37,700 nt of DNA from Cryomorphaceae bacterium (GTDB lineage: Bacteria; Bacteroidota; Bacteroidia; Flavobacteriales_D; SKUL01). This document shows positions 17,888 to 24,783 of the stretch, piece after piece (the stretch's first letter is position 1; each line of letters begins with the position of its first letter). The notes beneath the pieces are model-generated. The model made no database searches. It worked only from the letters and a program-made list of their open reading frames with translations, and had not been told where the DNA came from. The DNA lies in assembly GCA_007695365.1 (NCBI GenBank), contig REDV01000099.1:1-37700 (forward strand), written 5' to 3'. The position numbers and the translations under genes were made by a program.

Positions 17888-18337
17888 ATGAAACCATGTT
17901 TATTTATTTTGTTGATATGTGCGCCGCTCTGGTCAATGGCCCAAAACCCTGTTGGTGATATTGTTGTGCGCATCAGCGGTATGCCAAACGGAAAAGGAGT
18001 GGTGAAGGCAGCGCTTTTTGCGGAGGCAGAGGGCTTTCCGAACGACTGGAGCAATGTATTGCAGAAAAACCAGGTTGGCGCGTCGGAAGATACCGTTCAG
18101 ATTGAGTTTCGGCAGCTTCCCTATGGTAGCTATGTGGTAAGCGTTTTTCACGATAAAAACATGGACGGTGAGCTCAATACCAATGAAAAAGGAGTACCTA
18201 CGGAGGCCATCGGATTCTCCACCAATCCCAAAATCCGTTTTGGCCCACCCAAATACGAGCGTGCCACGTTTGAATTGAATGAACCTGTGCTCCGCATGAA
18301 TGTAGAACTGCAGACCTACAAAACCCGCGAAGAGTAG
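17888..18337 (+). CDS. DUF2141 family secreted protein
   Basis: The protein has 149 residues with a signal peptide MKPCLFILLICAPLWSMAQ. The mature domain shows the DUF2141 pattern: a first strand GDIVVRISGMPNGKG, then KAALFAEAEGFP, a central LPYGSYVVSVFHDKNMDG, and GVPTEAIGFSTNP near the C-terminus. The fold is a transthyretin-like beta sandwich; the DKNMDGELNTNEKG segment looks like an acidic calcium-type loop, which is common in the family. It acts outside the cytoplasm and its function is unknown. It has its own promoter and lies 33 nt after the small basic gene, so it may also receive read-through from the DinB operon. Confidence 0.9.
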   Translation: MKPCLFILLICAPLWSMAQNPVGDIVVRISGMPNGKGVVKAALFAEAEGFPNDWSNVLQKNQVGASEDTVQIEFRQLPYGSYVVSVFHDKNMDGELNTNEKGVPTEAIGFSTNPKIRFGPPKYERATFELNEPVLRMNVELQTYKTREE

Positions 18338-18385
18338 AGACCGGGAAAATTTTTCACAAAACGGCTTGGATTGATTTCTTTTCGT

Positions 18386-18393
18386 TACATTTA
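18386..18393 (+). promoter_or_regulatory. Possible -7 box for a small RNA
   Basis: TACATTTA fits TAnnTTTG except the last base. A TTG lies at 18366-18368, with 17 nt between them, within the range of Bacteroidota -33/-7 spacing. Confidence 0.35.
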
Positions 18394-18397
18394 CAGT

Positions 18398-18520
18398 CCA
18401 ACCACTACACTACGCCCACCCAAAAAATACCAGCCGGGCGATTCTACTCTTCATTGACCGTTCTGGTTAATTGAGTTTTGGTTATGCTTATTGCTTTTGT
18501 TTCCGCCCGGCTGGTTTTTT
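18398..18520 (+). ncRNA. Candidate structured small RNA
   Basis: In the gap between the DUF2141 and amidohydrolase genes a perfect 12-bp GC-rich inverted repeat pairs ACCAGCCGGGCG (18429-18440) with CGCCCGGCTGGT (18504-18515). The right arm runs into six T and the left arm is preceded by an A-run. The 63-nt loop contains a second hairpin: TCATTGACC (18451-18459), loop GTTCT, GGTTAATTGA (18465-18474), with one bulge and one G-U pair. Together with the upstream promoter-like sequence this fits a transcript of about 120 nt ending in a terminator-like stem. It does not match tmRNA, 6S, SRP or RNase P RNA as I know them. The 5' end is estimated. It could instead be a bidirectional terminator or part of the amidohydrolase leader. 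Confidence 0.4.
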
Positions 18521-18550
18521 CCTCAAGCACTGACATCCCGCGAAAGGTTC

Positions 18551-18558
18551 TATTTTTG
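18551..18558 (+). promoter_or_regulatory. -7 box for amidohydrolase genes
   Basis: TATTTTTG matches TAnnTTTG exactly, 15 nt before ATG 18574. It lies 30 nt after the T-run ending the candidate small RNA. Confidence 0.6.
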
Positions 18559-18573
18559 GCCAAACGCACGCGC

Positions 18574-21500
18574 ATGATACAGCTCAGGGCTACCCTGTTT
18601 TTCATGATTTTTTCGGCGCCTGTTCTGGCGCAGGTTACCTTTCCGGTAAACGGTCCGCACGATGAGCGAAACATGCCGCACGTGCTGGTAAACGCTACGC
18701 TGCACATCAGTCCGGAAAAGGTAATTGAAGGCGGCACCCTTGTTATTCGCGGCGAACGCATTGAGTATGCCGGAGCAGATTTCAAAGCCACGGAAGGCGC
18801 ACGCATTACCGACATGAGCGGAAAACATGTGTACCCTGCCTTTATTGATCTTTACGCAGATTATGGCGTGCCGGAAGCCCCCAAAAAAGACCGTCCTTCC
18901 GGTCCGCAATACGAACGGAAAGCCAACCGCCCCACCGCCTGGAACGATGCCCTTCATCCGGAATTCGCTGCTGCGGAGCATTTTTCGCCCGACGAAAAAA
19001 AGGCAGAACAGCTCAGGAAGCTGGGGTTTGGTGCGGTGCTCTCCCATAGACACGACGGCATTTCCCGCGGAACAGGAGCTCTTGTGTTTACCGGCGATGG
19101 CAATGCCAACAAACAATTGATGCGCTCCCGGGCAGCATCGTTTTTCTCCTTTCGCAAAGGCAGCAGCACGCAGCGATACCCTTCGTCACTAATGGGAGCC
19201 ATCGCCCTGCTTAGACAAACGCATTACGACGCGCGCTGGTACACTGATTCAGGCCCCAAACTGGAGCGCAACACCTCCCTGGAAGCATGGAACCGCAACC
19301 TCGAGCTACCACAAGTTTTTACCATCACTGAGAAAAATGACATTCCCCGGGTGAAGAAAATCGCCGAGGAAACCGGAATCAACTTCATCGTGAAATCTGC
19401 CGGTGATGAGTATCAGTGGATGGACGAAACCGTTCGCTCCGGCTTCCCGCTGATTGTACCACTGAACTTTCCTGAAGCTTACGATGTTTCGGACCCTTAC
19501 AACGCACGACTGGTATCTCTGCAGGAGCTCCTTCACTGGGAAAAAGCCCCCGCCAACCCAGCATTGCTTCACGAACGCGGGCTGAAATTCGCCTTTACCG
19601 CTCACGGCCACGAAAAGCCCGCAGATTTTTTCACCCATCTGCGCCAAACCGTGCAGTATGGCCTGCCCGAGGATATTGCGCTGGCTGCCCTCACTACCGT
19701 GCCTGCACAAATGATGGGCGCCCGGGATGAACTGGGTACCCTGAACCCTGGCTCACGGGCAAACCTGCTGGTGATGACGGCCCCTCTTTTTGAAAAAACC
19801 TCGGAACTGCTCGAAACATGGGTACTAGGCGAAAGACATCAGCACCGGGATTTTGAGGCGCTGGACGTACGTGGTGTGTACAACCTGAATCTCGACAACC
19901 ACTTCTACACCATCGAGGTAAAAGGAAAAGCCAACAGTCCTGAGGCCCGCCTGATGAAGGTGGACGGAAGCGACACCACCTACAGCAAAGTTTCGTTTTC
20001 GGTGCAGCAAAACCTGGTGAGCCTGGCCTTCAATCCAAAAGATGAACACTACCGTGAAACCGTGCGTTTTTCTGGAAACATTCACACCGAAAGCCGCATT
20101 TGGGAGGGCAAAGCGCACCTGCCCGACGGCACCTGGTTTGCCTGGACAGCCATTCGTCAGCGCGTGGCCAAACCCACAGAGCGAAAACGAAAAGAGCCTG
20201 TATCCATTGACTCGCTTGCGGCCATGCGCAATCCCTATCGCGCCTGGGGCCTGGATACGCTTCCGAAAGCAGAAACACTCTGGCTGAAAGGGGCCACCAT
20301 CTGGACCTGCGACATTGAGGGAGTGATTGAAGGCGGCGAAATGCTCATTCACAACGGAAATATTGTGGCCGTAGGAAAGCGCCTCGATCCTACTGCGCTA
20401 ATCGGGGGTAAGAACATGTCTATTCGCACGGTTGAGCTCCGGGGTAAGCACATCACACCCGGTTTAATTGACGAACATTCGCATATTGCCATTTCGCGGG
20501 GAGTGAACGAGGGCACCAAGGCCAGTAGTGCAGAAGTGCGCATAGGAGATGCGATCAACCCGGACGACATCAATATTTTTCGTCATCTCTCGGGAGGTGT
20601 AACTACTGTTCAGCAGCTGCACGGATCGGCCAATCCCATCGGAGGGCAGTCGTCTATTGTAAAAATGCGCTGGGGCCAACCCGCTGCCGGACTTGTGTTT
20701 GAAGGCGCACCCGGCTTTATCAAATTTGCGCTGGGCGAAAATGTAAAACAAAGCAACTGGGGCGACCGCGAAACCATTCGCTATCCGCAAACGCGCATGG
20801 GTGTGGAGCAGGTCTTTTACGACCATTTCCTGCGGGCAAAGGCCTATCATGAGGAGCACAGCAGCGTGAGCCGGGAGCAAGGGCGGGGATTTCGTCTTTT
20901 CCGGCGCAAGGAACAGGAGCCGAATCACAGCATCCGCACGGACCTGGAACTAGAAGCCATTGCCGAAATTCTCCACTCCGAGCGATTTATCTCCTGCCAT
21001 AGTTATGTGCAAAGCGAAATCAATATGTTGATGCACGTAGCCGATTCATTCGGTTTCAGGGTAAACACCTTTACGCATGTGTTGGAGGGCTACAAGTTGG
21101 CCGACAAGATGCTGAAACACGGTGCAGCGGGATCTACTTTTTCCGACTGGTGGACCTACAAATTTGAAGTGAACGATGCCATTCCGTACAATGCAGCACT
21201 CATGCATGAGCAGGGTGTGCTGGTGGCCATGAACAGCGACGACGCCGAATTGGCGCGCAGACTGAACCACGAAGCCGCGAAGGCCGTGAAATACGGTAGT
21301 GTGAGCGAAGAGGAGGCCCTCAAAATGGTGACCCTCAACCCTGCCACCATGCTGCATCTCGAAGACCGCGTTGGAAGCCTCAAAGCCGGCAAGCACGCCG
21401 ATTTTGTAATCTGGAGCGACCACCCCCTCAGCATATACGCCAAAGCCGAGAAGACCTATGTTGATGGTCGGTGCTACTTTGACAGGAGTAAGCTCGACGT

Positions 21501-21642
21501 CATGGAAAAACGCGATCAGGCAGAAAGAACACGTATCCTCCTGAAAATGATGGATGCCAAAACAGGAGGAAGCGACAAAAAACCCTCTCCCAATCCAAAC
21601 GACAAAGACTATCACTGCGATGATGTGGACGAAGAGATTTAA
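18574..21642 (+). CDS. Exported double amidohydrolase (degenerate N-half, intact C-half)
   Basis: The protein has 1022 residues with signal peptide MIQLRATLFFMIFSAPVLAQ; the frame extends 32 codons upstream, but the promoter lies there. Two amidohydrolase-like halves are joined. In the N-terminal half (about 25-430) the HxH motif is replaced by Tyr94-Ala-Asp96 in AFIDLYADYG, yet the small beta sandwich and the C-terminal LNPGSRANLLVM block remain. The second half (about 560-1022) is intact: His635 and His637 in IDEHSHIA, His809, His835 in FTHVLEG and Asp889 in NSDDAE, the ligands of an imidazolonepropionase/prolidase-type metal site. The substrate is probably a peptide or cyclic amide in the periplasm. 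The end overlaps the next gene by 23 nt. Confidence 0.9.
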   Translation: MIQLRATLFFMIFSAPVLAQVTFPVNGPHDERNMPHVLVNATLHISPEKVIEGGTLVIRGERIEYAGADFKATEGARITDMSGKHVYPAFIDLYADYGVPEAPKKDRPSGPQYERKANRPTAWNDALHPEFAAAEHFSPDEKKAEQLRKLGFGAVLSHRHDGISRGTGALVFTGDGNANKQLMRSRAASFFSFRKGSSTQRYPSSLMGAIALLRQTHYDARWYTDSGPKLERNTSLEAWNRNLELPQVFTITEKNDIPRVKKIAEETGINFIVKSAGDEYQWMDETVRSGFPLIVPLNFPEAYDVSDPYNARLVSLQELLHWEKAPANPALLHERGLKFAFTAHGHEKPADFFTHLRQTVQYGLPEDIALAALTTVPAQMMGARDELGTLNPGSRANLLVMTAPLFEKTSELLETWVLGERHQHRDFEALDVRGVYNLNLDNHFYTIEVKGKANSPEARLMKVDGSDTTYSKVSFSVQQNLVSLAFNPKDEHYRETVRFSGNIHTESRIWEGKAHLPDGTWFAWTAIRQRVAKPTERKRKEPVSIDSLAAMRNPYRAWGLDTLPKAETLWLKGATIWTCDIEGVIEGGEMLIHNGNIVAVGKRLDPTALIGGKNMSIRTVELRGKHITPGLIDEHSHIAISRGVNEGTKASSAEVRIGDAINPDDINIFRHLSGGVTTVQQLHGSANPIGGQSSIVKMRWGQPAAGLVFEGAPGFIKFALGENVKQSNWGDRETIRYPQTRMGVEQVFYDHFLRAKAYHEEHSSVSREQGRGFRLFRRKEQEPNHSIRTDLELEAIAEILHSERFISCHSYVQSEINMLMHVADSFGFRVNTFTHVLEGYKLADKMLKHGAAGSTFSDWWTYKFEVNDAIPYNAALMHEQGVLVAMNSDDAELARRLNHEAAKAVKYGSVSEEEALKMVTLNPATMLHLEDRVGSLKAGKHADFVIWSDHPLSIYAKAEKTYVDGRCYFDRSKLDVMEKRDQAERTRILLKMMDAKTGGSDKKPSPNPNDKDYHCDDVDEEI

Positions 21643-22915: not shown

Positions 22916-22921
22916 TTTGTA

Positions 22922-22929
22922 TAACTTAG
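22922..22929 (+). promoter_or_regulatory. Possible -7 box for HNH gene
   Basis: TAACTTAG is one base off TAnnTTTG, 37 nt before ATG 22967 and 6 nt after the amidohydrolase stop. Confidence 0.3.
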
Positions 22930-22966
22930 CCCATCTCGATTAGTAAACCAAAATAATTTTACACTG

Positions 22967-23536
22967 ATGGCTAGACGCAAAAAAGGTCCGACTGAAAGTT
23001 TGCCGGGCGAAAAATGGAAACGCCTCCACCATGTGGAAGGCGAGGAGATTGTTCCTATTTATGAAGTCTCTAATATGGGGCGTGTTCGCCGCCTGGAGAA
23101 AGACGGCGTGGTGCGCGTGATGGTTCAGGGAACCATAGCGGGTTATCCTTACGCGGTAATCAAGTATCCCGACGGACGGCAACGCAACCGCTACATTCAC
23201 AGGCTGGTGGCTCAGGAGTGGATCACACCCAAGGATCATTACCACAACTTTGTGATTCACAAGGATTATGATCGCAACAACAACAGGCTTGAAAACCTTG
23301 AGCTGGTGAACCGACGCTCCTTGTTTGAGCACCGTAAAAAGTCGCCCATTCCGCGCAAGCGGCGAGCGAAAGGCTACAAGCTGAACGAAACCAAGGTAGC
23401 CCGTATCAAAAAGCTACTGCAGGATGAGCATTTAAAATTGAGCATGATTGCCCGAATGTTCGGCATCACGCACACTCAGCTCAACCGCATACGCAACGGT
23501 GAAAACTGGGCGCATGTTGAGGCTGCCGAAGATTAA
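22967..23536 (+). CDS. NUMOD4-HNH protein with C-terminal HTH
   Basis: The protein has 189 residues and is strongly basic. Residues 17-45 are a NUMOD4 motif (EKWKRL with IYEVSNMGRVRRLE). Residues about 75-115 are an HNH_3-type fold with IHRLVAQEWI (His79), IHKDYDRNNNRLENL (His98, the Asn run and Asn110). Residues about 139-183 form a helix-turn-helix with LSMIARMFGITHTQLNRI. This is the domain order of phage and intron homing endonucleases. Here it is a stand-alone chromosomal gene between housekeeping genes with no phage genes around. It could be a domesticated DNA-binding regulator or an active nicking enzyme. The HNH histidines seem kept, so activity cannot be ruled out. Confidence 0.83.
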   Translation: MARRKKGPTESLPGEKWKRLHHVEGEEIVPIYEVSNMGRVRRLEKDGVVRVMVQGTIAGYPYAVIKYPDGRQRNRYIHRLVAQEWITPKDHYHNFVIHKDYDRNNNRLENLELVNRRSLFEHRKKSPIPRKRRAKGYKLNETKVARIKKLLQDEHLKLSMIARMFGITHTQLNRIRNGENWAHVEAAED

Positions 23537-24576: not shown

Positions 24577-24783
24577 GAAAGTTCGGTTGTTTTGACGGTG
24601 GGTAGGAAAGGATACTGGTTGACCCGAGCCACCTTTGAGTGGTTGGCCTGAGAAGCCGCACCAAAGAACGGGTTAGGACGGCATTGGCAGCAGCCACACA
24701 TTTCAGCTCAAGTACAAAAGACCATTAGACACAGTGAGTCCTTACGCGCAACATCCCACGACCTCAGCAGGCAACCACACCCT

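Follow-up and report, generated by a model that had tools for sequence, protein, structure and literature searches.

A conserved, structured intergenic element as a candidate small RNA in an uncultured Bacteroidota bacterium

What is the function, if any, of a long G+C-rich inverted repeat that sits between a DUF2141 gene and an amidohydrolase gene, both on the plus strand, in an uncultured Bacteroidota bacterium? An earlier note on the window—the whole 37,700-nucleotide stretch of DNA analyzed here—had proposed an undescribed structured small RNA. Fold, uniqueness and two-species conservation bear out a constrained RNA without an Rfam family, while its existence as a discrete transcript is something we infer. 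The element is real and probably functional, and we lean, by a modest measure, toward a small regulatory RNA of about 123 nt that is transcribed on its own, is confined to the genus and pairs with mRNAs. The features of the locus are collected in Table 1.

Table 1. Coordinates of the element and its neighbors in the window
Feature	Position	Strand	Basis or remark
Upstream gene, DUF2141 protein (PF09912)	17888..18337	+	
Candidate promoter: TTG 18366-18368, 17 nt, -7 box TACATTTA 18386-18393	18366..18393	+	motif match
Candidate small RNA, about 123 nt, ends inferred	18398..18520	+	folding, uniqueness, conservation
Unstructured C/A-rich 5' leader, A-run at its end	18398..18428	+	mean unpaired probability 0.88
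Left arm of 12-bp terminal stem (ACCAGCCGGGCG)	18429..18440	+	inverted repeat
Apical hairpin, 7 pairs 18453-18459/18465-18471	18453..18471	+	folding; G-U here, G-C in congener
U-rich, mostly single-stranded segment; 18475-18494 is the candidate mRNA-pairing part	18475..18503	+	identical in congener
Right arm of terminal stem (CGCCCGGCTGGT, 18504-18515) and T-run, predicted intrinsic terminator	18504..18520	+	identical in congener
Block 40/40 identical in both species, TATTTTTG box 18551-18558; likely amidohydrolase promoter	18530..18569	+	
Downstream gene, amidohydrolase-family protein (PF01979/PF07969), signal-peptide-like start	18574..21642	+	

The fold is the most tangible property of the element. 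Its terminal stem is perfect, as the earlier note had it: the two G+C-rich arms pair at 12 of 12 positions around a 63-nt loop, T6 follows at 18515-18520, and an A-run lies immediately 5' of the left arm. The inner hairpin of nine pairs described at 18451-18474 fared less well. A hairpin does exist there, but its nine-pair form contains one bulged base and one G-U pair. The energy model favors seven pairs plus ACTC/GAGT; in the window sequence the nine-pair form falls 3.8 kcal/mol short of the MFE-like fold. Folding leaves the U-rich segment mostly unpaired. The 145-nt stretch reaches a minimum free energy of -37.9 kcal/mol, whereas shuffles average -25.1 (z -3.74) and one in 200 of them does equally well.

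Within its own genome the element is single-copy. Among 403,434 bases sampled from the genome, the element is the one place where a 12-bp stem carries a loop of 40-90 nt and is followed by a T tail, and no other exact G+C-rich stem of at least 10 bp has such a loop and tail. This 11% sample (the window plus 19 stretches of the genome) is non-random, its contigs having been named by earlier matches, and it includes both candidate 3'UTRs considered below. Ten Markov-1 control sets yielded 12-bp cases with a tail in 0 of 10, and 10-bp cases with a tail once each in two sets. No plasmid or phage match was found, and an exact 26-mer of the element is not in the viral contigs.

How strongly is the element held by selection? 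The comparison involves two species, the source genome (G000) and its sole congener in the collection (G001), and the element is present in both of the two family genomes examined. The congener contig starts right after the left arm (position 1 of L060, the start of G001:C264, is the base directly following it), which points to the hairpin as the cause of a break in assembly or sequencing. The alignable part is thus 18441-18520, with the left arm, leader and promoter outside it and the leader known from the window only. Across this part 78 of 80 bases are identical (61 of 63 in the loop), with one base inserted just after the T-run, whereas the adjacent gene retains 246 of 448 fourfold-degenerate sites; conservation therefore exceeds the neutral rate. 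Two other intergenic stretches of the same contig pair retain 41 of 92 and 14 of 25 columns, a third 49 of 51, and between these species an ordinary terminator elsewhere is unchanged at 17 of 21 bases. Equally conserved 80-column windows number 60 of 7,303, in three places, so the element is among the most constrained DNA of the region and not alone in being so.

Strong conservation of the loop argues that the element is not a bare terminator, and the one-base insertion, which shifts the frame in the congener, that the constraint is not coding. A coding reading from the ATG at 18483 was considered and rejected: its frame, read by eye, has no stop 5' of the T-run in the window and enters the amidohydrolase gene, but in the congener the insertion brings a stop after 16 codons. 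The two substitutions lie in the loop. T to G at 18448 falls on a base that is unpaired in the nine-pair structure and paired in the minimum-energy one. At 18468, T to C replaces a G-U pair by G-C. In terms of covariation, the two sequences thus show a single consistent change, with no compensatory pair of changes; of the terminal stem the comparison covers the right arm, the congener contig beginning just past the left arm.

Two further observations came from the same alignment. The 49 of 51 identical columns lie at 22916-22966, upstream of a NUMOD4/HNH-type open reading frame (22967-23536; 517 of 570 identical), and form a second strongly constrained non-coding stretch that may be a promoter or another RNA. 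Separately, at 24603-24783, the frame called for a class I aminoacyl-tRNA synthetase (minus strand, to 24701) has its first roughly 100 bases unaligned with the congener; its true start is probably near 24602.

Does the element belong to a known family, and how far does it extend? The claim that no known RNA class fits holds for Rfam: nothing in the window matches at the gathering score, 6S families included. With the threshold relaxed to E 10, two minus-strand matches came up and no others, each below its gathering score and judged to be chance: HIV_GSL3 at 23.9 bits (gathering 42) and SNORD109A at 13 bits (gathering 35). A narrow literature search found no paper on this element. A covariance model, R1, built from the two sequences of the source and congener, recovered these two from 399 genomes of the order, along with weak matches in two more (26.1 and 27.2 bits) that overlap open reading frames and were judged chance; from 395 genomes of the class it recovered the source alone. 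In any search that spanned more than 40 genomes the filters were stricter and weak matches drop out, which means that diverged relatives could have escaped detection. Over 45 sequence sources—L025 and L030, which come without upstream DNA, being excluded—R1 gave 15 matches beyond its two building sequences, namely the element's own opposite strand at E 0.024 and 14 others at E of at least 0.19. By blastn at E 0.01 or below, 20 of the 399 genomes of the order gave matches, the source and congener among them. The other 18 were judged chance, being short and mostly in the U-rich loop; a crude scan found no exact inverted repeat of at least 8 bp near 17 of them, and the 10-bp repeat at the remaining one starts inside the match itself. 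The best reading is that the element is genus-restricted.

The case for a separate transcript with its own promoter begins at the 5' side, where the earlier note had drawn attention to a TTG-17-TACATTTA site. That site is present and is the sole TTG-N17-TANNTTTR match in the window, but 0.48 matches are expected by chance and 40 of 100 shuffles contain at least one, which makes the promoter weak on sequence alone. In Flavobacterium psychrophilum the TAnnTTTG box is reported at -12 to -5 (PMC9723704); applied to 18386-18393, that placing predicts an RNA start at 18398. At the other end, the G+C-rich stem runs directly into the T-run at 18504-18520 and so has the form of an intrinsic terminator, and the terminal stem with its U6 probably terminates transcription. 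Termination on the opposite strand is also possible, though it serves no visible gene there.

The main rival to an independent small RNA is that the hairpin ends the DUF2141 mRNA, as a 3'UTR and terminator possibly cut out as a 3'UTR-derived small RNA and without a promoter of its own. We regard this as rather improbable. In its favor, the hairpin has the orientation of DUF2141 and begins 92 nt past that gene's stop codon, and a search of 18337 to 18429 turned up no second hairpin resembling a terminator. Against it, termination does not need a conserved loop of 63 nt, and the promoter-like site lies between gene and hairpin. Less probable still, and unlikely in our judgment, is a conditional terminator—an attenuator or riboswitch—in the amidohydrolase leader. 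The element does lie upstream of that gene and is oriented like it, the CGCCC at 18413-18417 might pair competitively with GGGCG of the left arm (18436-18440), and the 40 bases past the terminator are identical in both species. Those 40 bases, however, carry a promoter-like box 3' of the terminator and are likely the gene's own promoter, and with such a conserved block between terminator and start codon the gene need not depend on read-through. (Boxes of the TATTTTTG type are not enriched in the window, with 16 observed against 18 expected by chance, and the amidohydrolase itself is identical between window and congener at 936 of 1022 residues.) The minimum-energy fold, moreover, retains the terminator and no competing fold was seen; no Rfam riboswitch or curated cis-regulatory model matches, the only hits being sub-threshold and to unrelated families; and the best R1 value in 23 (of 25) more distant amidohydrolase loci searched was E 4.

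Two other explanations we hold to be very improbable, each to about the same degree. A diverged 6S RNA, mimicking a promoter to bind RNA polymerase, would account for the closed stem and large internal loop, and no 6S family reaches its cut-off in this genome (the best RF01685 score is 19.5 bits, gathering 85). The element, however, matches neither RF01685 nor RF00013 even at E 10, its apical hairpin has just seven to nine pairs, and a sub-threshold candidate exists elsewhere. That candidate (L063, G000:C70:74854-75036) scores 26.8 bits over the full RF01693 model, gathering 60, and is possibly the 6S RNA of this genome; RF01693, Bacteroidales-1, is the suggested 6S RNA of Bacteroidales. In two genomes of one genus from the same order as the source, sub-threshold 6S-Flavo matches also appear (L054 1398-1518, 46.4 bits; L055 1501-1623, 41.4 bits; gathering 85), and look plausible; the Rfam model may be too narrow. 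As for a chance or mobile hairpin devoid of function, the narrow distribution and the break of the congener contig at the stem would suit it, but the single copy, the lack of any plasmid or phage match and a conservation far above that of fourfold sites speak against it.

If the element is an independent small RNA, its U-rich strand would be the natural place to look for targets. Two mRNAs of the source genome complement the loop in their 3'UTRs: a gene with a type IX secretion tail (C125; PF18962) at 18 of 19 bases and an MBL-fold/rhodanese gene (C140; PF00753/PF00581) at 16 of 16, the latter site being kept in the congener (C232). All three sites lie on the mRNA strand between stop codon and terminator, and the predicted loop/3'UTR duplexes reach -31.6 (C125), -24.9 (C140) and -27.2 kcal/mol (C232). 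For comparison, 359 slices of 60 nt from the shared region were scored, and the strongest value was -25.7 kcal/mol in the window and -17.2 in the congener. Pairing in cis with the neighboring gene was rejected on these figures, the best slice, 18721-18780, dropping from -25.7 in the window to -17.2 in the congener, so that such pairing is not kept.

Counts of similar sequences temper the target assignment. Allowing up to three mismatches, the 19-mer has nine matches in the source genome (one of them itself) against one for the reversed pattern, and four in the congener (again one itself) against none. By mechanical gene calls, the eight non-self matches in the source comprise two complementary sites in 3'UTRs and six sense matches inside reading frames; the three in the congener comprise one and two, respectively, and some of the sense matches fall in signal-peptide-like codons. 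A wider enrichment of targets was not found: in 403,434 bases, with up to three mismatches in 16, there are nine complementary sites (one of them the element) versus 13 for the reversed control. Since 288 of 32,200 intergenic 16-mers recur inside the 11% sample, complementarity over 16 nt is weak evidence. A near copy in that sample was seen for one of 400 intergenic 19-mers; a single near 19-mer match in the genome is thus unusual, but allowing for the full length of the element keeps it from being decisive. Cofolding of whole RNAs improves the energy by just 3 to 5 kcal/mol, and the site is left unpaired with its partner in the most stable dimer. The two 3'UTR sites constitute a testable target lead. 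The congener's MBL-fold/rhodanese 3'UTR additionally carries a 229-nt insert (L004 1517-1745) that adjoins the candidate pairing site, is absent from the source genome and has inverted ends of about 15 nt (GGACTTGCTGAAAA... / ...TTTTTCAGCAGGTCC); it is a MITE-like element.

Under the small-RNA reading, RNA polymerase would start near 18398, and the 12-bp stem would close the whole molecule before U6 ends transcription. Stem and apical hairpin would together present the U-rich strand at 18475-18503, which would pair with mRNAs, the best candidate sites being the 3'UTRs of the MBL-fold/rhodanese and type IX tail genes. Such pairing may alter the stability of those mRNAs or, conversely, the mRNAs may titrate the RNA.

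Known systems offer partial parallels. Rfp18 of Flavobacterium psychrophilum is an intergenic base-pairing small RNA of Bacteroidota (PMC9723704), and RNAs of that type share with the element an independent intergenic transcript, a strong fold and supposed pairing with mRNAs, the transcript and pairing being predicted here. The element departs from them in being enclosed entirely by a single terminal stem and in having its candidate sites in 3'UTRs; we claim no family link. 6S-Flavo RNA (RF01685) is of similar size, closed by pairing and from Bacteroidota, but its model does not match the element. An intrinsic, rho-independent terminator likewise shows a G+C-rich stem followed by T6 and preceded by an A-run, whereas its loop is short and variable and the element's is long and conserved.

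To our knowledge, the small RNAs of this phylum are little mapped. The element is probably one more bacterial small RNA and not a new kind of system. A more novel reading, which we consider unlikely, is a new genus-specific RNA whose stem-presented U-rich strand regulates a few mRNAs, or is titrated by them, through sites between stop codon and terminator; this would be a 3'UTR-directed pairing mode in Bacteroidota, where Shine-Dalgarno sites are scarce. These organisms are described as mostly lacking Shine-Dalgarno sequences (PMC6847099). If transcribed, the element adds to the phylum an RNA that has no Rfam entry and offers two concrete 3'UTR pairing sites; and if its action is indeed directed at 3'UTRs, it would suggest where small RNAs act when the usual target at the ribosome site is missing.
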